From a virus: a stretch of DNA of 49,623 nt. Both the position numbers and the translations under genes were made by a program. The stretch covers positions 1-49,623 of the IMG/VR virus record IMGVR_UViG_3300026321_000003; one strand, 5' to 3'. Within the stretch, counting starts at the first letter, position 1; each line of letters begins with the position of its first letter. Positions 12,314 through 45,500 of the stretch are shown piece by piece. Below the pieces are notes generated by a model. It was not told where the DNA came from. It saw only the letters and a list, made by a program, of their open reading frames with translations, and searched no databases.

Positions 12314-12321
12314 ATTTATAC
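12314..12321 (-). promoter_or_regulatory. T4-like late promoter ahead of the 177-aa gene
   Basis: An exact TATAAATA on the minus strand straddling the stop of the 2,449-aa gene, with its 3' end 23 bases ahead of the ATG at 12290. It likely drives the 177-aa gene and the left-edge fibre. Confidence 0.75.
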
Positions 12322-15300
12322 CTTGACCTTAGTAGTTGTATATCTACCAGTGAAAGTCGAGGATGATGTAGCAGCAGAAGACTTGTTCAAACTGATGTTC
12401 ACGTTGTTAGCAGCAACAGAAACTGTAGCGTCCATCAGATCATTATCTGAAGTGATGGAGTTAGTAACTGTGCAATGAGCGACTGTTCCACCAGCAGCAC
12501 ATATTGCAGTAACCTCAAACATTTGTACTTTACCGTCATCACTTTCAATAGTAATTAAGGTCTTAGCACCTTTATATGCAGTCTTATCAAATGCTGCAAT
12601 AGAAGCATTTGAACTGAATGAGGTCATTTGACCACCTTCAACCCTAGCAGAATCTAATTCCATGAAGGTTGCTGTGGAATCAAATACTGTTAGATAGCTT
12701 TCAGTACCACCCGCTTGCCAGTTTCTGTTAATCTTCCACTTACACTCAGATGCATTGGAATCTAGAGCAATGAATGCTTTAGAATCTAATCTTGTGAGGT
12801 AATCCTGTAGAAGAACATCATTACGAGCATATGGAGTAGATGGACTAGAGATGGTATCAACTCTAATCGTTACGTCTTGAGATGGAGTTAATCCACCAAG
12901 AGCAGTACCTAATACTCTCAATACTTCACCATTTCCAGCGGAAGGAGCAGATGCTGCTTCATAAAGAGTACCACCAGCGTTGATAGCAACTGTCGTAATA
13001 GTTCCAGCACCGTCAGTAACGATGTCTAATGTTGCTCCAACACCTTCAACAGATCCAAGTGTTGTGACTGCAGTGAATGTTGTAGATGCAGTATATGATG
13101 TAGCAACTTGTGTGAGGGTAGCAGCATCAAGAGTAGCAGCAACACCCTGAGCAGGTACAGAACGTAATCTTAATCCACCACTAATTTCAAAGTCTTTCTT
13201 AGATCTTACAGCAGCAATAAGATTGCCCTGCCCTTTAACCTCTAATGGGTTTGTATCATATATCGTACCGTTGAGTGTAAATCCACCAGTAACTGTTGCT
13301 AGATGAGATGCAGCATATGTGGTACCCGTCATGTTCGTCTTGAACGCTAGGGTAGTGTTATTCAATGAGAGGTTATTAATACCTGCAGCAAAGAACTCAA
13401 ATGTATCTTCATCAGAACTAGGTGAAACCTCAGTTAATATGTAAGTATCTTGGTCAACGTCTCTAACACCACCAAGAGAAACGAAATCATTTCCGTTGAA
13501 CCCTTCAAACTGTAACTGTGTAGAGTTGAATCTAATAGCACCTGCTATTCTATCATTAACAAGTGGACGTTGGTTTGTAGTACCAGCTGGTATAATAAGT
13601 GAACCAGTTGATTTAACATAAGCACTCTTACCGCCACCTGGTTTGAGGACAATACCTTGACCTTGTGTATCAGTAATAGTAACAGTGTTTCCAGAACCAC
13701 CACCAATCGTAGCAGGGTTAAATGTTATTTCATCACCAATATGATAGTTGTGACCCTTAGCAGCAGCGGTTACTACTGCAGCAGTAATAGCACCACCAGA
13801 GACAGTAACGTCAAAGGTTGCAGCAGTACCAATTCCAGTTGTTGCAGTGACAGTACATGCGGTATAAGAACCGTCAGTGTAACCCGTTCCTGAACCAGTG
13901 ACTGCAACTGTTAATATTTCACCGAAGGAATTCGTTCCTCCAATATCTGCGTTCTCAATGCTATTAACTTGGAACTTAAGCTTTTCATCAATCTTGAAAG
14001 TACCAGCAACTTCAGCATTACCAGTCTGAGTATCAACAAAGAATTTCTTATTAGCTACATTACCATCGTTAACTTGGAACTCTCTATTTGCAGCACCAGT
14101 AACGACCATATCACCTTCTCCTTTTGGAGTAATAGTGACAGGTATATTAGCATCCTGACCAGCAGCAGTTAGTACAGCAGCGTTATTAAGCTGAAGTCCA
14201 GAGTTTGCACTACCAACAGTAAGAGTTTCGGCAGTAGAATCTACTTTAAAGAATGGAGCAGCATTACCTATAGTACTGTCAGCGACAATATCACCAGCAG
14301 TTTCTATACCAGTTGCTTTAATAACATGCTTTTGGGTTCCGCTATGTGAGATGCTTATCTCATCAGCAGCAGATCTATAGAATCCAGTATCATTTTCTGC
14401 AGCGAGGAATAGTGCAGGAGCAGCAGCAGTACCAGCTTGGATACCTGCTCTCATATTCTCTACAAAGTTATCTAATCCATTACAAACAATATTTCCAGTA
14501 AATGTTGAAATACCAGTAACACCTAAGACTCCACTAAATGTTCCACCTACAGCAGTAAGATTAGCACTTGCTTGAATAGTTCCAGTAGTTAGTGTGTCAG
14601 ATGATAAAGTACTTGTTGTGCCCGAAGAACCAATTGTTAGGTTTCCAGCAGCAGAGAAGTTGTAGTTTGCAGATGTTAATGAACCATCACCAGCAATTGT
14701 AGTAATTGATGTTGTTATAATAGTATTTGCGGTCATCGCAAAGTTACTACCAGCACCCATTCCACTAAACTGTGTGTCGTCAAATACTATTGTTTGACCA
14801 CTGAAGAATCCAGCACCACCATTACCAGTTGCTATTTCAGCAGTACCAACATAACCAACTTTAGATACTGTGTATTGGAAACCAGATCCACCAGCATCAC
14901 CAAGGTTAACATCATCAGCACTAAGAACATCACTAACAGCATATCCAGATCCAGATGCTTGAATCTCAGTTACACTGAAGACACCAGTATCATTACCAGT
15001 AATTGTATATAAGAATCCAGAAGTATTACCAATAAGAGCATTAGATGTTACTCTAAGAACGTCACCGACCTTATAGTCAGATCCTTGCATACCTGTTGGG
15101 AAGGTTGCTATAGTAACTCCACCACCTGCAACAGTGATATCAAGTTGTGCACCGTGTCCATATTCACCAGCAGCACCAGCAGTAACATTGATCAATGCGT
15201 TTGCTGACATCTTACGACCATGTGTAGAACACTCGTAATATGCAGTGTTACCTATGGTTGCTCCAGGTTTAACAACAATATCTACAAAAGATCCTGCAAC

Positions 15301-18300
15301 ACCAGGAGATCCATATGTTACTGTTTGGAATTCAGTTGTAGCAGCCTGAGATGTACCATCCATAACGAATGGGTGACCATTATTAGTTGCATCAGACATA
15401 TCAAAACGATATGTATTACCTCTAATCATGGTTAGGTTTGGTGCTTCTACAGCACCTGAACCAGTATTAATGAAATATCTTGCAACGTCTGCAGGAGTAC
15501 CAGCAGTAGTTAAACTACCACCACTAGCAAAGTTAACCACCTCATTATCTTGGAATGTTCCAGTGACAGGTGAATTCAACATAACGAAACTATCAGTACC
15601 TGCAGCTGCGGCACCAACGTAACTTACAACACCAGTTGCACCAGATGTTGCACCTGTGGCAGTTGTACCAACGGTAACTGATCCTGTGATTCCACTAACA
15701 GTAGATGCTAATTCGTGTTTGGTTACAACAGTAACTGGCCATGTAGCAGTAGGGTTGTTATTAACAACATTAATCTGCATATATTCACCAGCAGTACCAC
15801 CAGTACCTGCGGTAATATTTCCGAAAAGTCCTCTTACAGTAAAGGTTGCAGATGCACCTGTACCAGTTCCACCAGTAAATGCTACGTTGGCATATTCTCC
15901 AGCAACGTATCCAGATCCAGCAGCAGTAATAGTACCAGAAACAGGTAAGACTGTAAGTGATGCAGTTGCACCAGATCCAGAACCACCATTAACAACAACT
16001 GTTGGTGTAGCTGTATATCCTTCTCCACCCTGAGATAAGGTTATAGTACCTACCTGACCAAGTTCAGTGTCTAGTGTTGCTGCAGCTACAGCATCCGTAT
16101 CGGGACTACCGCCACTGAATGTGATGTTTGGTACGTTTGAATATCCATATCCACCATTGTTTAATGTAATAGATTCAACAGAATATGTTAATGCAGAGAC
16201 TGTTGCAGTCGCTCCAGTACCTGTTGTATCACCACTAGTTGTGTTTGCTGTAACTGTTAGGGTTGGTATTGCTGAATATAAACCATCACCAGTAGTCTGT
16301 ATCGATGCAAGCTCACCACCGAGCCATACTGTGAATTGAGCATCTGTGACTCCACCACCAGTCTCACTCATTGTAAGAGTTGGAGATGAACCAATTGTAT
16401 ATCCTGATCCACCAGATGTTACAGCAACTGCTGTAATTGCACCTGCTGCAACTGTTACCGCACCACAAACAGCAGTCTCACCTCTAATAATGTGAAGTTC
16501 TTGAGCACCAGTAGCAGTCAGAACTATAGGTGTACCACCTGAAGTTGCTGCAAGTTGAAGAGTATGAGTTACTGAGTTTCTATTTACAACATAATATGTT
16601 GTACCACTTGTAAGGTTAGTTAAGTTACTATTACTATTATTGTCATATACTACCTTATCACCATTCTTAAAGTTAGTCTGAGTAAATGTAATTGCATTGT
16701 TTGCAATAGCAGTGTTAGCATCAAACTGTCTATCAGGTGGAGCAGTAAATGTTCCTGTAGGTGATGTATATCCAGCACCACCAGGGGCAATAGGTACAAC
16801 CTTCGCAACAGAACCACAAGCACTCAAAGAAGCTAGGAATGTTGTTGATCCTGAAACAGGAGCAGTACCAGTAGTAACCTCTGGGTTAGCTGTATATAAT
16901 GAACCACCAGCAGTAATCGTAATGTCACCAAGCAGACCATTAGTTGCTAATGTAGCAGTTGCGGTAGCAACTTGATCTGGGTTTGATAGTAGAGCAGCAC
17001 TGTAAGCACCTGGAGTGTATCCAGAACCTTCATTGGCTATCGTTATACCACTTCCAGTATCATCAAGTGCTTTCTTATTAACACCGAAGTTCTTGTTGGA
17101 GTAGATACCATAAGAGGAGAATCCTGCTTGAGCAAAGGTACCAACCGTAAATGCACAAGAAGAATTACCAGTTCCAATCATGGAAGCAATTCTGTTAGAG
17201 TCAAAGTAGATGTTTTCTGGGCAAACTACCTGACCATTAAGTGTAATATCTTGGTCACCAGCAGGGTCAAGGATGATCTTACCTGATGTTGATGTTAGAC
17301 TGTTACCTGCTAGACGTAAGTTTCCTGTTTCAACGTATGCAGGATAAATGTTTGTAGTACCAGTTCCGTCAGTTAATGTAATATTTGCAGCAGACTGAGC
17401 AGTCGATGTTGCTGCGAAAGATACATTACCAGTTGCTTGATCAACTGTAAATGCATCACCAACACGGAAGTCACCGTCTTGGTCAGTTGATGAATAAAGT
17501 ACTTGACCGTTATTTAATTCTTCTACTTCGTTAACTTGAACTGCTAATGATGGGTCATTGGTATAGTCAGAACCAGCACCAACATATGCAAAGTTGTGAG
17601 CAGTTAGAAGGAACTTAACACCAGATCCATCTGCCTGTACACCTTTAGTACCGTATACACATGCAGAAGCAACTGAACGTAACTCAGCACCAAATGCTGA
17701 ATAGTCAGCAGTAGTTACTGAAGTAGCACTATCTCCACCGCTAGAACGAATATCGCTAGTACCACCAGATTCATCTGTGAATGACGTAGTAGCGTCGTCA
17801 CCGTTAGCATGTAGTAATAGTACAGTATTGTTATCTGAAGTATATGCAGATGTTGTAGAAGTAAATGCACCAGTGAAACGGGCAGCACCCTTACTGAATC
17901 TTACCTCATCAATATGTCCATTGAATGCCTCAGCTGGAGCAGTAGTGTCGTAGTTTGATCCTATTGCTACAGGTTTTTCAACTCCATAGTCATTAGTGTC
18001 AGCACCAGTTGCTAACTCTACACCATCAAGGAATAGTTTTGTAGTTCCAGCATTTCTTGCAACAGCAACATGATACCATGTACCTGTAGATAAAGTACCA
18101 CCAGTACGAGTGGATGCGTTACCCACACCATAATGAAGTGCAGTACCATTCAAGTAAAGCTTACCTGCTGTGTCTGTAGCAGAAGCGTTTCTAAGGTCAA
18201 ATATATGTTGTATGCCAGAAACACTTGCTGGACGTATGAATGCCTCCATACAGAAGTTTGAAGTACCAAATCCGAAGTCCTCTCCAGATGGTACCATTAA

Positions 18301-19665
18301 ATTATCTTGCGTACCGTCAAATAGAAGTGATCCACTTCCAAATTTCTTTTGTGCAGTATCGATCTGGGTGTCACCAAATCTACTTAATACCTTTACTGCT
18401 TTAAGTCCTGTAGTAAATGTACCTGTTCCCTTACCAGTAATATAAACGTAAGTACCATCATTACTTGCAACAACACCACGACCTACTGCTTTCTTGTAGG
18501 TTACGTTGTTGGTAGTGATTGTACCAGATGCTGAATCAGTAAATGTAACAACGTTAGCATCTACTTTAGTAACTTGATAGAAGTTATCTGTAGCACCACC
18601 ACTGATAAAGTCTGCATAGATGTAATCATTGGTTAATAAACCATGTCCAGTTCTTGTTAAGGTAACTGTGGTTCCAGCACGAGTATATGTACCAGACTGG
18701 AAACTATCCTCTAACTGATATGCTATCTCAGAAGTAGCAAAAGTTCCACTAACACCACCTAATTTTAATCGAGTATTACCTGTACCATACTTACCTGTTG
18801 CTCCCTGTACACCTTGAAGACCAATAGAAGCAAAATAGTTAAATGAATTTAACCATTCAACACGAATACCATTAGTTACTTTAATACCAACTTGGTTTGG
18901 AGTGATGAATGTACACTCATTAAAGAGTACAGCAGCATGTTGTGAACCAGAATCTACTTGAGCACCATCTAATAGGGCACCACGTCCAGCATCAGCTTGT
19001 GCAAATCCATATGGATCAGCACCAGAAACTACACTACCCTTGGTAGATACAGTAACTCTTTCAACATAGGGACTCTTAACTGAGTCCTTAGATGCTACTA
19101 GAACAAATGCATATCCCTTATCGTTGCCACTATCATATTGGAAACCTTTAATTGTCATATCAGAGATATGGCAATCCCCTGAAAGAATAAATGCGTTATT
19201 ATTATTTGTCGCGCCAGTTGGATATACTTCAGTCGAACGTAAATTAGTACCACGTAGAGTTACACCATCAGGTATAGTCATCGGGAAGACTTCCTGATAA
19301 CTACCTACACCAACTACAATTGTATCCCCAGAAGTAGCTACACTAAGGGCTTTAGTTATTGTTAAGAATGCTGTGTCTTGATGCTTACCTCCAGCACCTG
19401 AGTTAGTGAGCGTAGTGGTGTCTGCACCATTTTTATTGACATACCAAGTACCACCAGGACCATTAGTAACGTCCGTGGCAAGCATTGCCGTAGTAACCTC
19501 ACCTACATTTGGTTTTTGGTTAGCGACCTCAACTATTGCTGCACCATTTCTGGCGTATAATTTTTGATCAACTATATTAAGGGCTACCTCGCCGTCTTCT
19601 AAATTAGAAGTCGTCGGGACGGCTGCCGCTGTCGTCGATCTCTTGAGCTTGATTCTCGTTGCCAT
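12316..19665 (-). CDS. Giant tail-fibre-like protein with beta-helix, laminin-G and cupredoxin-like domains, 2,449 aa
   Basis: The start ATRIKLKRSTTAAAVPTTSN then EDGEVALNIVDQKLYARNG is an Mtd-type N-terminus, which fixes the ATG although it overlaps the previous gene and lacks a clear ribosome site; an in-frame TAA lies one codon upstream. Domains in order: a right-handed beta-helix-like region (about 70-295), an HGL unit (about 325-380), a laminin-G/concanavalin-like domain (about 425-635), Gly-rich GGSGY strands (about 880-1,300), a cupredoxin-like domain (about 1,397-1,493), then fibre shaft. The end includes GGVRDVDQDTYILTEVSPSS, familiar from cyanophage fibres. It probably acts at the virion surface in binding host glycans, but no enzyme active site was identified. 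Confidence 0.83.
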   Translation of the reverse strand: MATRIKLKRSTTAAAVPTTSNLEDGEVALNIVDQKLYARNGAAIVEVANQKPNVGEVTTAMLATDVTNGPGGTWYVNKNGADTTTLTNSGAGGKHQDTAFLTITKALSVATSGDTIVVGVGSYQEVFPMTIPDGVTLRGTNLRSTEVYPTGATNNNNAFILSGDCHISDMTIKGFQYDSGNDKGYAFVLVASKDSVKSPYVERVTVSTKGSVVSGADPYGFAQADAGRGALLDGAQVDSGSQHAAVLFNECTFITPNQVGIKVTNGIRVEWLNSFNYFASIGLQGVQGATGKYGTGNTRLKLGGVSGTFATSEIAYQLEDSFQSGTYTRAGTTVTLTRTGHGLLTNDYIYADFISGGATDNFYQVTKVDANVVTFTDSASGTITTNNVTYKKAVGRGVVASNDGTYVYITGKGTGTFTTGLKAVKVLSRFGDTQIDTAQKKFGSGSLLFDGTQDNLMVPSGEDFGFGTSNFCMEAFIRPASVSGIQHIFDLRNASATDTAGKLYLNGTALHYGVGNASTRTGGTLSTGTWYHVAVARNAGTTKLFLDGVELATGADTNDYGVEKPVAIGSNYDTTAPAEAFNGHIDEVRFSKGAARFTGAFTSTTSAYTSDNNTVLLLHANGDDATTSFTDESGGTSDIRSSGGDSATSVTTADYSAFGAELRSVASACVYGTKGVQADGSGVKFLLTAHNFAYVGAGSDYTNDPSLAVQVNEVEELNNGQVLYSSTDQDGDFRVGDAFTVDQATGNVSFAATSTAQSAANITLTDGTGTTNIYPAYVETGNLRLAGNSLTSTSGKIILDPAGDQDITLNGQVVCPENIYFDSNRIASMIGTGNSSCAFTVGTFAQAGFSSYGIYSNKNFGVNKKALDDTGSGITIANEGSGYTPGAYSAALLSNPDQVATATATLATNGLLGDITITAGGSLYTANPEVTTGTAPVSGSTTFLASLSACGSVAKVVPIAPGGAGYTSPTGTFTAPPDRQFDANTAIANNAITFTQTNFKNGDKVVYDNNSNSNLTNLTSGTTYYVVNRNSVTHTLQLAATSGGTPIVLTATGAQELHIIRGETAVCGAVTVAAGAITAVAVTSGGSGYTIGSSPTLTMSETGGGVTDAQFTVWLGGELASIQTTGDGLYSAIPTLTVTANTTSGDTTGTGATATVSALTYSVESITLNNGGYGYSNVPNITFSGGSPDTDAVAAATLDTELGQVGTITLSQGGEGYTATPTVVVNGGSGSGATASLTVLPVSGTITAAGSGYVAGEYANVAFTGGTGTGASATFTVRGLFGNITAGTGGTAGEYMQINVVNNNPTATWPVTVVTKHELASTVSGITGSVTVGTTATGATSGATGVVSYVGAAAAGTDSFVMLNSPVTGTFQDNEVVNFASGGSLTTAGTPADVARYFINTGSGAVEAPNLTMIRGNTYRFDMSDATNNGHPFVMDGTSQAATTEFQTVTYGSPGVAGSFVDIVVKPGATIGNTAYYECSTHGRKMSANALINVTAGAAGEYGHGAQLDITVAGGGVTIATFPTGMQGSDYKVGDVLRVTSNALIGNTSGFLYTITGNDTGVFSVTEIQASGSGYAVSDVLSADDVNLGDAGGSGFQYTVSKVGYVGTAEIATGNGGAGFFSGQTIVFDDTQFSGMGAGSNFAMTANTIITTSITTIAGDGSLTSANYNFSAAGNLTIGSSGTTSTLSSDTLTTGTIQASANLTAVGGTFSGVLGVTGISTFTGNIVCNGLDNFVENMRAGIQAGTAAAPALFLAAENDTGFYRSAADEISISHSGTQKHVIKATGIETAGDIVADSTIGNAAPFFKVDSTAETLTVGSANSGLQLNNAAVLTAAGQDANIPVTITPKGEGDMVVTGAANREFQVNDGNVANKKFFVDTQTGNAEVAGTFKIDEKLKFQVNSIENADIGGTNSFGEILTVAVTGSGTGYTDGSYTACTVTATTGIGTAATFDVTVSGGAITAAVVTAAAKGHNYHIGDEITFNPATIGGGSGNTVTITDTQGQGIVLKPGGGKSAYVKSTGSLIIPAGTTNQRPLVNDRIAGAIRFNSTQLQFEGFNGNDFVSLGGVRDVDQDTYILTEVSPSSDEDTFEFFAAGINNLSLNNTTLAFKTNMTGTTYAASHLATVTGGFTLNGTIYDTNPLEVKGQGNLIAAVRSKKDFEISGGLRLRSVPAQGVAATLDAATLTQVATSYTASTTFTAVTTLGSVEGVGATLDIVTDGAGTITTVAINAGGTLYEAASAPSAGNGEVLRVLGTALGGLTPSQDVTIRVDTISSPSTPYARNDVLLQDYLTRLDSKAFIALDSNASECKWKINRNWQAGGTESYLTVFDSTATFMELDSARVEGGQMTSFSSNASIAAFDKTAYKGAKTLITIESDDGKVQMFEVTAICAAGGTVAHCTVTNSITSDNDLMDATVSVAANNVNISLNKSSAATSSSTFTGRYTTTKVKV
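15186..15478 (-). other. Cupredoxin-like domain with candidate type-1 copper ligands
   Basis: Residues about 1,397-1,493 of the fibre. PNLTMIRGNTYRFDMSD, NNGHPFVMDG and AYYECSTHGRKMSANALINV fit the cupredoxin pattern of an early strand, a GHPF-type His, and a Cys-x2-His-x3-Met loop. The candidate ligands are His1431, Cys1479, His1482 and Met1486, at relative offsets 0, 48, 51 and 55. Plastocyanin ligands (His37, Cys84, His87, Met92) have offsets 0, 47, 50 and 55. Copper binding is inference. Confidence 0.65.
15750..17030 (-). repeat. GGSGY beta-strand repeats in the 2,449-aa fibre
   Basis: About nine Gly-rich units at residues about 880-1,305, for example GGAGYTSPTGTFTAPPD, SGGSGYTIGSSPTLTMS, NNGGYGYSNVPNITFSGGSP and QGGEGYTATPTVVVNGGSGS. 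They share the GGxGYxxxPxVxxxGGxGxGA core with the giant wedge protein and gp8. Confidence 0.7.
17760..18390 (-). other. Laminin-G/concanavalin-like domain of the 2,449-aa fibre
   Basis: Residues about 425-635. KKFGSGSLLFDGTQDNLMVP, FTVEAFIRP-like NFCMEAFIRPASVSGIQHIF, TWYHVAVARNAGTTKLFLDG and NGHIDEVRFSKGAARFTGAF, with LLLHANGDD near the end, match the LamG type-3 pattern. The fold commonly binds sugars. Confidence 0.78.
18850..19450 (-). other. Beta-helix (pectin-lyase-like) region of the 2,449-aa fibre
   Basis: Residues about 70-295. GTWYVNKNGADTTTLTNSGA, FLTITKALSVATSGDTIVVG and IPDGVTLRGTNLRSTEVYPT fit the YV...GxD...TIxxAl...GDTIxVxxGxY...IPxGVxLxG pattern of right-handed beta-helix proteins. 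Such folds are frequent in phage fibres that bind or cut polysaccharide. I see no convincing catalytic set. Confidence 0.6.
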
Positions 19666-39500: not shown

Positions 39501-42500
39501 ACTATCTCTGGTGTAGATACAAAGTTTGAACCACCATTGACTACATCAAAGTAGTCGATAACTTGAGTTCTTGTTAATTGTAGGTTATATGTGGTATTAA
39601 GTTCTGGTTTTAAAGTTCTATCGTGAGAATAGTTGAAAGTAATGTTATCTCCACTAATCTTAAGAATCTCACCCAAATCGGAAGACTTAAGTAATATAGA
39701 AGCACCAGTTCCTTTCTTCTGAGTAATATTAACTACTGGAGCACTTCTGAACTGTTGACCAGCAGCTGCAATGGATATACTGGAAACTCCCTCATTTGCA
39801 ATTGCAGCAGTGAATGAAGCGTTAATACCTTGACCACCACTAACAGAAATGTCAGGAGCAGACAAATAACCAGATCCAGTGTTTGTAACGGTTACTGTAT
39901 CTACATAAGCATCTAATACTGTTCCAATAGAAGCTACGTCTGCATGTGCCAATGTAGTAACTGTCACATCAAAATCTTCGTTAGAAGCACCACCAGGAAG
40001 TTTAGTACCGTCAAATGTTAGTGTATCACCTAGTACATATGAACTACCGCCATCAGTACATGTAACTGTGCTAATTGCACCATTACCATCTGTGACTATT
40101 GTAAACTCTGCTCCAGATCCACTAGAACCTGCAATAGAGGTTTGAGTGACACCTGTAGTTGTTGTATCTGCAGTAAAGGCATTTGAAACAGATTCAGTGA
40201 TATTTCCAACTGTAGAAACAGTTCCATAGTAAGGATCGTCAAATATAATGTCTGGAGCAGATCTATAATTAGAACCACCGTTAGTAACAGTAACTTGAGT
40301 TAATGTACCAGCACCATCTACTGTAGTAGCAACAATAGCTTGTGTTCCACTTACAGCACTAATAGATGCTTGAGAATCTGAACTGTAGATTTTATTAGTA
40401 ATAGCATTACCACTACTAAACATAATATATCCCTTATTAGCAGCACCCACTCTTTCATTCTTAAGTGGTTTAACTCTTACTGTCGAAGAAGTAGGATCCC
40501 AAGAAATAACACTACCTCTAGCAGTCTGATTTCCTTGAGTTGTTTGAGATATTACAACTTCATCCTTAATAAACGATCCAAGTACCCCAGTAAGTGTTAA
40601 ATCAACATAATCGGGTAATGATACAACTCCTGTTGGAAGTTGACTTTGATTATATCCAGATCCATCGTTTGTAATGGAAACACTAGACAATTCACCTGAA
40701 ATAGTAGCAACACCAGCTGCACCAGATCCAGATCTAGTAGATCCACTTAATTTTGGAAGAGATGAGTAGTTTCTTCCAGGATCTCCTATAGAGATGGTTG
40801 CAACTCCCCCTGTAGGGTAAATTGAGTTTGTAGTATAAGTAATGCCTGTTGAATATCCACTTTCAGGTGCAAGTGCTGTTACATATGTAAATGCAAAGTC
40901 TGTCTTACTTAAAACTGTCTGTGTTCCAATAATAGGATCATTTATGGATGTAAAGTAACTTCCAGTTACATTTCCTTGAATATCGAAGTAATAGAAGATT
41001 CCAGGTAAATCTTTTATGAAAATTGTAATAGAATTCTGAGCACCCGTAATTGGATCCCTTTCTTCATCAGTAATGTTCTTATAAGTGAAAATATCGGTAT
41101 TTGCGGGATCTAAAGTAAATGCAAGTGTTTTTCCAACATTACTTGCATCGGAAGTGTCAATCTTGTATTTGTGCCCCGAAATAAGTTGTAATTTGGGTTC
41201 TTGGACATAAACCTCGGAAGAAGTCGTATTTGCAGCTGCAATAGTTCCAAAATTACGTTTTACGGTAAATCTACGAAGAGTTTCAGTTCTAACAACGGAA
41301 TAGTCGGTTTTATTGTAACCAGAAGGAGTAATTCCCGAAATATTGACTATATCGCCGATTCCGAGTTGATGTGGCAAAGTTGTATGGCATTGTGCTTCAG
41401 TTTCGACTTCAGTTAGTGTAATAGTGAATCCAGAACCAGCAGGAGATGATGCATTGCCTAAATTGACATTTGCAGCACTAATAGTGTCACCTACGTTATA
41501 TCCATAACCTGCATCTGTAATAGTGACTGTAGTTACCGCACCACCAGAAACTACGATAGTTGCTTTAGCAGTAAGTCCAGATCCATTAGATGATAATGGA
41601 ACATCGAAATATGTGGCATCAAGGTAATTACTACCACCAGTAATACTTGACCATCCACCTTGTACCAAATTACCGTCTGTACGGATTCTCATGTAGGTCC
41701 AATTGATTGAACCATCACTTGCAGTACCAGATGTGTGTGTTGGAGCAGTAGATGCAGAAGTTCCACTTTCTGCAGCTTTATAAACTCTATTGCCAACGTA
41801 AATAAGATCAGCTAGGACATATGCTGTTGTATTAGCATATTCCTTGATTAGATCCATCCTTCCACTTCCAGATAATTGGAAATACTTGAAATGGTACTTA
41901 TCACCTATGACCTTAGCTGAAAGTTCTCTAGTATAGAGGTTATCCGTTAAAGAAACGGTAACATTATCACCAGCATTCAAATAATGCTTCTCTGAAGTGG
42001 TTATAGTCTGAGTATAGACATCTGTGTTAGCATCGACTACACTTGCGACTGTATTAACTGGTTCTCCAGTAATTGCGGATACAGTAGCACTAACACCTTC
42101 ACCATCAGTGCCAGTATTATCAAATAAGAGCCTATCATTGACTTTATATCCATTACCGCCACCTTCTACAAGATATTGATCAACTCCAGCGGAAGAATAC
42201 TTATTAGTTGCGGAAACGATCAATGAATCTGCAGTACCACCTCTAATTGTAGGATAGTAGCTGAAGTATCCAATTCCATCTTCAAGATAAGATAGAATCT
42301 CTCCAGTTTCCATCACAATCAATGTTGTGGTGTCTTCTAGTGCTAAGAAGAAGTCAACTTTGTTATCTAACTGTTTTCTCTTCGCTACAATGTTATCTGT
42401 GCCGATAAATGGCTTTCTATAGCGAATTGCGTCTTCTGTAAAGTTTTTCTGAAGACCATTACCGTTCCAGTTGACAGCATTCGCTTCTGAGTAGAAATTA

Positions 42501-45500
42501 GGTCCAATAAAGTATGGAAACTTCGGTTGTCCCGCAGTACCCTTGATTGTAGCGAAATATGCATAAACTCCATTTGGATATTCTGGAGTAACGCAGAATC
42601 TGCCATTATATTGGTCTAAATCTCCATATCCTTCCGTATACTCATAATCTTCAATATAAGTCCCTAGAGGGTCTGTTAGACCGCTTAGAAGAGCATCTCT
42701 AGAGGTCTTTACATTATAAGATGATATCATCAACTTATATGAGTTATATGGTGTAGTATTTTCAGGATCTTCAAATCCATAAGGTCCATATATGGGGTGT
42801 CCATCATATGCCCAACCAATAATCGGTGAATGCCCAGTTGGATTCAACTCATTAAGATTACTGTCAATATTATCTCTTAAAAGGTACCTAAGTTTCTTAG
42901 GGTTATACAAATATCCGTATTCACCCGCATATATCAAATAGTTCTCACCTTTGAGTGTTGTACCACCTGCAGCATCCGTAGTTTTCCTATTTGTGAAGGA
43001 ACTAGCGGGAACACCGAGTTCTTCATAGGTTGCTGCCTCATTATAAGTTAATTCTGTTAATTTAGTCTGGAATGATGCGCCTGTACCTGGATATACGATA
43101 TCAATGCTTGTAGCACCTGCGCTATAACCAGATCCTTTGTTTGTTACAAGGATACCAGTAACAATATTGGTAGAAAGGTCTACTTGAGCAAATGCGGTAG
43201 CACCAACTCCATCTCCAGTAATAATAACGTCTGGAGCTCCATAATATCCACTACCACCAAAGGTTACAATGATACTTTCAATCTTTCCGTTTAAAATGGA
43301 AGGATACGCAACAGCACCACTACCAGATATCAATTTGATCGATGGTTCGTAAGTATATTGACTTCCTGCGTTAGTAATGTTAATTGTATTGATTGGTCCA
43401 CGGCAAATGGCACTTGCAGTTGCCCCTTGTCCGCTTCCTCCACTAATAGAGATTGTAGGAACACTAGTATATCCGCTACCCTTGTTAGTTACTATGATTC
43501 CAGTAACTGTACCATTAGTGATCTGCGCTGAACCAGTTGCCTGATTGTCATTGCTAGCTCCACCACCAGTAATTGATATAATAGGTTCTGTAACATATCC
43601 ACTACCACCCGCAGTAACGTTAATCGCTATAACCTCACCTAGGACAGAAACAGTAGCAGCTGCGGGAGTTCCTTCGTATTCCCAGTTAACTGTACCTAAT
43701 GTTACGATACCAGATGTGTGTGTTGGGTAAACAGTTGATGATGTTCTACCACTAGTAACAGCTTGGTACCTATTTCCGTTATGCTTTACTCTAGTGTATA
43801 TTGTATAGACTCCATTGAGCGCATAATCTTCTTCAAACACAACTGTAGGTGGGTTTGTGATGTCATATCCCGCGCCACCATTATTCTTAGTGATTGATGA
43901 TAATCCACCAAACTTCTTAATGTCTCTTCCTTTATATGAAAACAACGGAACACCATTTGATCCAATACCAATTTGTCCAATAGGAGTAGCTGTCTTTGTA
44001 CTCTTGGTGGATGGTGTTATGGGGATTCTCTTAAGATATCTCTGGTTACCTGGTGGTAAGTCACCTGAACCGAATGGTCCAATCTTATGTGATGGTACAC
44101 CTGTACTAGCGACGATAACATCCGTATCTGATTTGTAAGTATTCTGTACGTCTGCGGTATAATCCTTAACTACATTATTGATAGATGCGTAATCACTCGT
44201 ACCATACGCAAACTCTCTAGCAATGTAGAATTCAAATCCTGTTATGCCCAGAGCAGGTCTAGATGAGAAGATAAACTCAAAAGTAGTCTCATTAACAATA
44301 CCAACAACGTCATGCTGGTTATTGTAGATATCCTCTGGTGCATTGAGGATTCTAATCACATCATCTCTGATTAACCTATGTGGTTCCTTTGTGACAATGG
44401 TACAACGAACAGAACCATCGTTATTCGTCGTTCCTAGGGTCGCTGAGACACCTCTGAGTGCCCTTCTTACGTTATATGTGAAACTCTCCCAAACTGGATC
44501 AATACTATCAAATCCTGGAGCGGCTGGAGTACTAACCTTACTACTTGGAAGGTAATACTGCCCACCATCAGTTAGTTTAACTCCTCTGGTTCCACCATAG
44601 ACTTTTAATTGAATTTCAGAGTTATCAACATTGGAATATCCATAAATCTTAAACGCGGCAAATACTTCTTGCCCTGCATCATGTGCTACATTGAGTGTAT
44701 TCTCTCTAGCACGTGAACATCCTAAAAATTGGGTTACAGTTTTATCTGTATATGATATAATCTCATCTTCTATCCTAAATCTTCCATTTATCTCTGGCCA
44801 ACCCAATGTAGAGTCAACAGTGACAATTTGATCGTTTACTTCACCACCCAAATCAGATGAAAGCATCGATTTGTATGGAGTTACAAAAGTTCCGAGTGAA
44901 TTATTGGTATCTACGTCAATTTCAAAGATAGATCCGCTAGAAGTGAAAACTTCTACTACTCCTTTAACATAAATCCGCGCAGCGGCAACATTTGGGTCAT
45001 CAGGATCACTTTCCTGATACAAAACTTGCCCAACAAGGTCATTTGGGTCTCCAGAAACAGCAACAGCACGAATTACTTCCCTAGAAGTGTAATATGCGTC
45101 TGATGGCTTGAAAATTCTGTCTCTTGGGTAGTCAACTTCTGATTCTACGCCAAAAAGTGTTCTTAAAACGAATTGGAAAGACCTTGTAGACCCTTTTGCG
45201 GCATAAAAGTCCTTAACTCGCTTAATTACAGTTGATTCAGTTACTCCCTCTGCAAAATTCTTCGGAAATGTTGCTAAGAACTGTTCTTTGAACTTTCCAA
45301 GAACATAAAGTGGGAAAATATTGTTTAAGTTGACAACTTTAGTGCCAAGAGCGTGTGCAGCGGCAACAGTATTCTCAGATCTATACTCTCCTTCCTCTCC
45401 AACACCTCTTACAGCGTTAAATCCCCTTGAACAAGTCTGAAATAGTGTCTGACCCTTACTTTGATAGTGAATTATCTCATCATCAATTAAAAGTAGACCT

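Follow-up and report, generated by a model that had tools for sequence, protein, structure and literature searches.

The cupredoxin-like domain and its host protein

The window, by which we mean the whole stretch of viral DNA analyzed (49,623 nucleotides), has the Prochlorococcus phages P-HM2, P-HM1 and MED4-213 as its nearest isolates, with gp6 79-80% identical. The cupredoxin-like domain described here lies in the long minus-strand gene of protein P0001 (Table 1). The profile phrog_32294, named 'baseplate wedge subunit', matches P0001 from end to end (residues 1-2449 against 1-2435, 2791 bits), and P0001 is the positional orthologue of PHM1_095 of Prochlorococcus phage P-HM1, where the annotation reads 'gp7 baseplate wedge initiator'. 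We dropped the T4 name gp7 for P0001 because S-MbCM7 puts 'gp7' on an earlier gene, which is without the domain, than the domain-bearing one. Upstream of P0001 in the window are gp25-, gp6- and gp8-like genes, and P0001 stands further along the gene order, which we take to be where T4 keeps its outer baseplate and fibre genes. The first-pass annotation of this DNA had called the protein a phage fibre; its formal class is baseplate wedge subunit (phrog_32294), but a fibre-like position is plausible.

Compared with P-HM1 in 100-residue blocks, residues 1-800 of P0001 are 70-84% identical and residues 801-1900 mostly 27-48%. The cupredoxin-like domain falls inside this variable, fast-evolving center of the protein, and all four candidate ligands are nonetheless kept between the two phages.

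Two other observations concern the neighboring genes. In the baseplate gene cluster, P0010 (48724-49239, minus strand) matches phrog_23903 (E=6.4e-51), whose name, 'toxin', looks doubtful. Repeats of the form F-x-C...YPR, mostly with a conserved Cys and a nearby His, occur in P0002 (3-11738, minus strand; seven matches in residues 1076-2075) and in P0004 (30557-45853, minus strand; 11 matches in residues 3096-4229).

Table 1. Coordinates in the window of P0001, its domains, the candidate copper ligands and the second domain copy
Feature	Position	Strand	Basis
P0001, tail/baseplate protein, 2449 aa, carrier of the cupredoxin-like domain	12316..19665	-	phrog_32294 full-length match; P-HM1 PHM1_095 orthologue
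Laminin_G_3 (ConA-like lectin) domain of P0001, residues 450-594	17884..18318	-	Pfam PF13385, E=1.4e-17
Cupredoxin-like domain of P0001, about residues 1396-1497	15175..15480	-	profile alignments, AlphaFold model, Pfam Copper-bind links
His1431, candidate Cu ligand 1, just before the strand starting at model residue 38	15373..15375	-	
Cys1479, candidate Cu ligand 2, end of model strand 79-84	15229..15231	-	
His1482, candidate Cu ligand 3 (C+3)	15220..15222	-	
Met1486, candidate axial ligand, C+7 (C+6 in most relatives)	15208..15210	-	
Second domain copy in P0004 (5098-aa ORF), residues 1552-1640, without copper ligands	40934..41200	-	

The first-pass annotation had proposed His1431, Cys1479, His1482 and Met1486 as a set of copper ligands. 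A residue check in P0001 placed all four where it had claimed, at a spacing of 0/48/51/55, and the strands that it quoted (IRGNTYRFDMSD, GHPFVM and YYECSTHGRKM) are all found in the protein. It had set the domain at 15186-15478 and named no strand; the domain is there, on the minus strand, but its real extent is slightly wider, at about 15175-15480. The forward-strand frames at 15220-15435 and 15428-15622 were rejected as mechanical ORFs opposite the long coding frame. Among the 11 window proteins examined there is a single match to H-x(42-52)-C-xx-H-x(2-4)-M; the chance expectation of this pattern in P0001 is 0.0004, and none of 5000 shuffles reproduced it. The domain contains a single Cys and therefore no internal disulfide.

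Relationship to the cupredoxin family

Searched alone, the window domain matched no family in Pfam and NCBIfam, where it stays below the gathering score of PF00127 (Copper-bind; 21.2 bits), and no copper protein among PDB sequences. The sole match of the single-sequence PDB search, a monobody (E=0.062), was discarded. Profile A1 had SUMO as its top PDB match (E 2.9e-4 in two stretches that covered it partially). We discounted this match as spurious, since with the broader profile A4 (103 rows) plastocyanins took its place, coming first (E=0.05) and aligning along the domain. PF00127 was matched by 11 of the 103 A4 relatives at E<=0.1, the best at 2e-5. Moreover, A4 finds three cellular domains, L268, L272 and L273 (together A6), at E 2e-11 to 1.4e-10, and these score above the PF00127 gathering threshold. 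The hhalign comparison of A4 with A6 gave a probability of 98.4 (E 7e-15), and that of A4 with plastocyanin-type sequences directly gave 79.9. At the level of sequence profiles, it is transitive homology and not a direct database match that supports placing the domain in the cupredoxin superfamily.

A plant-named Pfam family, PF25489 (At5g54830-like domain), matches 21 of the 103 A4 relatives, with a best value of 4.8e-7. Judging by these matches, the family may also be cupredoxin-like; no link between PF25489 and cupredoxins was found in the literature searched.

AlphaFold2, run with A4, predicted an all-beta sandwich for the window domain (pLDDT 93.6, pTM 0.82), with strands at model residues 3-5, 10-12, 16-19, 23-27, 38-40, 51-56, 65-70, 79-84 and 96-100 and a short helix at 45-49. 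The first His (model residue 36) comes before the strand that begins at 38, strand 79-84 finishes with the Cys (84), and the last loop contains His 87 and Met 91. Plastocyanin has the same strand order, with its first His before a strand, its Cys at a strand end and its second His and Met in the last loop. The Foldseek search of the PDB with the window model mixed Ig-like domains with copper-protein domains; the best E was 0.011, to a titin Ig domain, and the leading matches had TM scores of 0.42-0.53. The relative L234, which is 30% identical, is likewise modeled as a beta-sandwich (pLDDT 94.7), and its best PDB matches include AcoP cupredoxin (5e-4), plastocyanins, pseudoazurin, amicyanin and copper nitrite reductase. 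The cupredoxin fold suggested in the first-pass annotation thus agrees with the strand order and with the PDB matches of the relative, but the window model's own matches are weak and mixed with Ig domains, so that the fold assignment partly rests on relatives.

Conservation and loss of the candidate ligands

When 23 divergent domains (mostly 30-41% identical) were aligned, the invariant columns were T, Y, F, D, H31, Y, C79, H82 and M86, that is, the four candidate ligands and a few core residues. Of 230 non-redundant domains, 221 retain the H, C, H and Met, a count that is partly biased since some collection patterns included the Cys/His or the first His; the tblastn set, the source of many A1 rows, is free of that pattern bias. 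The Met lies at C+6 in 156 of these 221 domains, at C+7 in 64 and at C+8 in one. In the nine exceptions the Cys and the second His were always lost together, while the first His was retained in six and the Met in four. The degenerate, ligand-less state corresponds to about five changes, an approximate loss count taken from a quick, poorly resolved tree with seven degenerate rows, one of them a doubtful weak match. The ligand set proposed from the single sequence has proved to be conserved in homologues, and this conservation, the transitive link to PF00127 and the confident beta-sandwich models support the reading of a cupredoxin-like domain.

The P0004 ORF carries a degenerate copy, which offers a comparison within the window for the intact domain, and also has a YHYH domain (PF14240, E=3e-26) at residues 976-1104 (42542-42928, minus strand). 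P0004 is placed between gp6- and gp8-like genes, the slot of gp7 in T4.

Distribution of the domain

With the window domain as query, tblastn returned 53 phage records at <60% identity, all marine, from cyanophages, pelagiphages, methylophages and marine single-cell viruses. Other family members as query returned 43 and 72 phage records, and a plasmid search with the domain gave no match. IMG/VR contributed at least 551 relatives among the 600 pattern matches listed, and BFVD gave 34 matches at E<=0.001, of which the named ones were mostly marine-phage virion proteins. The isolates with the domain are P-HM1, P-HM2, P-SSM2, P-TIM68, S-TIM5 and Melnitz. Domain-bearing phage proteins are annotated as tail fibre, baseplate wedge, virion structural or hypothetical protein, and copper is absent from the annotated names among the phage matches listed. 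The guess of the first-pass annotation that the family occurs in other marine phages was right, but its view of the domain as unusual in such a setting has to be given up, since tblastn and IMG/VR find it to be common in marine phage tail proteins.

The virion protein that bears the domain differs between related phages, and marine myovirus fibres are among the proteins in which it recurs. There are mostly one or two copies per protein, in ORFs of <200 to >5000 residues, some of them clipped by contig ends. On a contig filed as Pelagibacter, one protein (L237:2336-4396) has a copper-type domain together with a T7-type tail-fibre N-terminal domain (PF03906). The cupredoxin-like domain is also borne by marine bacterial proteins with cadherin/Ig domains, two of which, L249 and its relative L258, have a lipoprotein-like signal at the start. 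'Cellular' matches that resemble phage contigs within host assemblies were not used as cellular evidence. Judging by this distribution, the domain is an exchangeable module of the outer virion (baseplate/fibre) and of bacterial surface proteins.

A 189-kb contig of a Prochlorococcus single-cell assembly (C3; L226/L281) has six domain matches in very large ORFs as well as a plastocyanin-like gene, and it looks like a cyanophage genome inside a host assembly.

A putative copper module on the phage tail

After analyzing the profiles, models and distribution together, we propose that residues 1396-1497 of P0001 probably form a cupredoxin-like module holding one copper ion. The ion would be held by His1431, Cys1479 and His1482, with Met1486 as the axial ligand, and would fasten the loops at one end of the sandwich, giving a rigid, metal-dependent knob on the fibre. 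Such a knob would serve structure or host contact and not the electron carrying of a diffusing protein. Because the distribution is that of an exchangeable outer-surface module, the copper would most likely fix the module's loops and make a rigid contact surface; a structural or adhesive role, suggested by the domain context, is a tentative proposal to which we give slightly less than an even chance. We infer both that the metal is copper and when it is loaded. The cytoplasm, where phage proteins are made, probably contains very little free copper, and loading may therefore have to wait until lysis or after.

We regard electron transfer, display of copper to a receptor and a decoration free of metal as weaker alternatives to a structural or adhesive copper module. 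The full His2CysMet set, as in electron-transfer cupredoxins, and the retention of the Met at C+6 to C+8 would suit a redox-active type-1 copper centre that served cell-surface electron transfer during adsorption or acted as a redox-sensitive trigger. However, domain profile searches saw no partner redox domain in P0001, the domain lies deep within proteins that are hundreds to thousands of residues long, and its host settings, tail fibres and adhesin-like proteins, appear to be without a known electron-transfer role, so that a redox centre has in our estimation a slim chance. A copper 'Ferrojan horse', in which fibre copper is recognized by a host metal-uptake receptor or copper is scavenged, is similarly improbable. 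It has a precedent in the iron held at HxH motifs of T4 gp37 and proposed for marine tail fibres (PMC11705849), and the domain is widespread in marine phages. However, a single receptor does not appear to be indicated, because related phages place the domain in different virion proteins.

The ligands might also be relics, or stay metal-free in the virion, within a purely structural beta-sandwich decoration. Ligand-less copies do persist in fibres, one of them within this window, and in the Foldseek ranking of the window model Ig-like domains stand side by side with copper proteins, but four chemically specific residues are invariant in a fast-evolving region, and the Cys and second His are lost jointly, which makes a metal-free decoration unlikely. 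Cupredoxin sites are able to take Zn in vitro, and the single Cys is free of any internal disulfide, both of which count for a site for another metal (Zn, Fe) or another role for the Cys. However, the His-Cys-His-Met set with its C-x2-H-x2-4-M loop is the copper-site type of the relatives that pass PF00127, and we consider a different metal or Cys role very unlikely.

Since hundreds of contigs from marine phages contain the domain, copper-binding sites may be present on the tails of many ocean viruses. A broader claim, that functional type-1 copper centres are common on the tail fibres and baseplates of marine tailed phages and serve host contact or a redox- or metal-gated infection trigger, with virions as a copper-binding pool of seawater, is in our judgment unlikely to hold.

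No report of cupredoxin domains or copper sites in virion proteins was found in the literature searched. The fold family is known, and its use as a common virion tail-protein domain is undescribed in that literature, the nearest precedent being HxH iron (PMC11705849). If copper binding is confirmed, it would be a second metal chemistry on phage tails, where so far there has been iron, in phages whose hosts are among the most abundant marine bacteria, and it would tie virion structure to seawater copper. Prochlorococcus is copper-sensitive. The copper question is directly testable because the isolates named above have the domain. Moreover, the domain model would make it possible to annotate these unnamed regions in the tail proteins of cyanophages, pelagiphages and methylophages.

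Comparison with known systems

The window domain shares with plastocyanin and azurin (PF00127) the order His, Cys, His, Met, at 0/48/51/55 against 0/47/50/55 in plastocyanin, as well as a Cys that ends a strand, a first His that just precedes one and a collinear profile alignment; intermediate cellular domains pass both PF00127 and A4. Unlike in plastocyanin, where Asn follows the first His, the window (GHP) and nearly all relatives have Pro, the loop in the window is C-x2-H-x3-M, and the domain is part of a 2449-aa virion protein and not a soluble single-domain carrier. The spacing C-x2-H-x2-M is that of amicyanin and is found in most relatives (C+6 in 156 of 221). Amicyanin, pseudoazurin and AcoP are among the PDB matches of the L234 model, although the Foldseek TM scores are only about 0.5-0.55 and the loops and the context differ.

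Multicopper oxidases have the motif HPxHLHG, in which Pro follows His. The His-Pro of the window resembles this, a match of A4 to the copper oxidase 6vox aligns Y-F...HP, and multicopper oxidase and laccase domains are among the fold matches of both the window and L234 models. In contrast to these enzymes, the domain here is single, and Pfam finds no multicopper-oxidase family match in P0001.

In phages, a transition-metal site has been proposed or shown at the HxH iron-binding motifs in the tail fibres of T4 gp37 and alterophage R22Y (PMC11705849). The predicted site of P0001 would likewise be a transition-metal site on a phage tail, but its fold and ligands are different, and among all His positions of P0001 no pair lies two apart, so that no HxH motif is present. 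Cyanophages also carry a member of the same superfamily as an auxiliary metabolic gene, the plastocyanin gene petE, which is small and separate (324-369 bases; PMC3037559). In contrast to that stand-alone gene, the cupredoxin-like module of P0001 is a domain of a virion protein.
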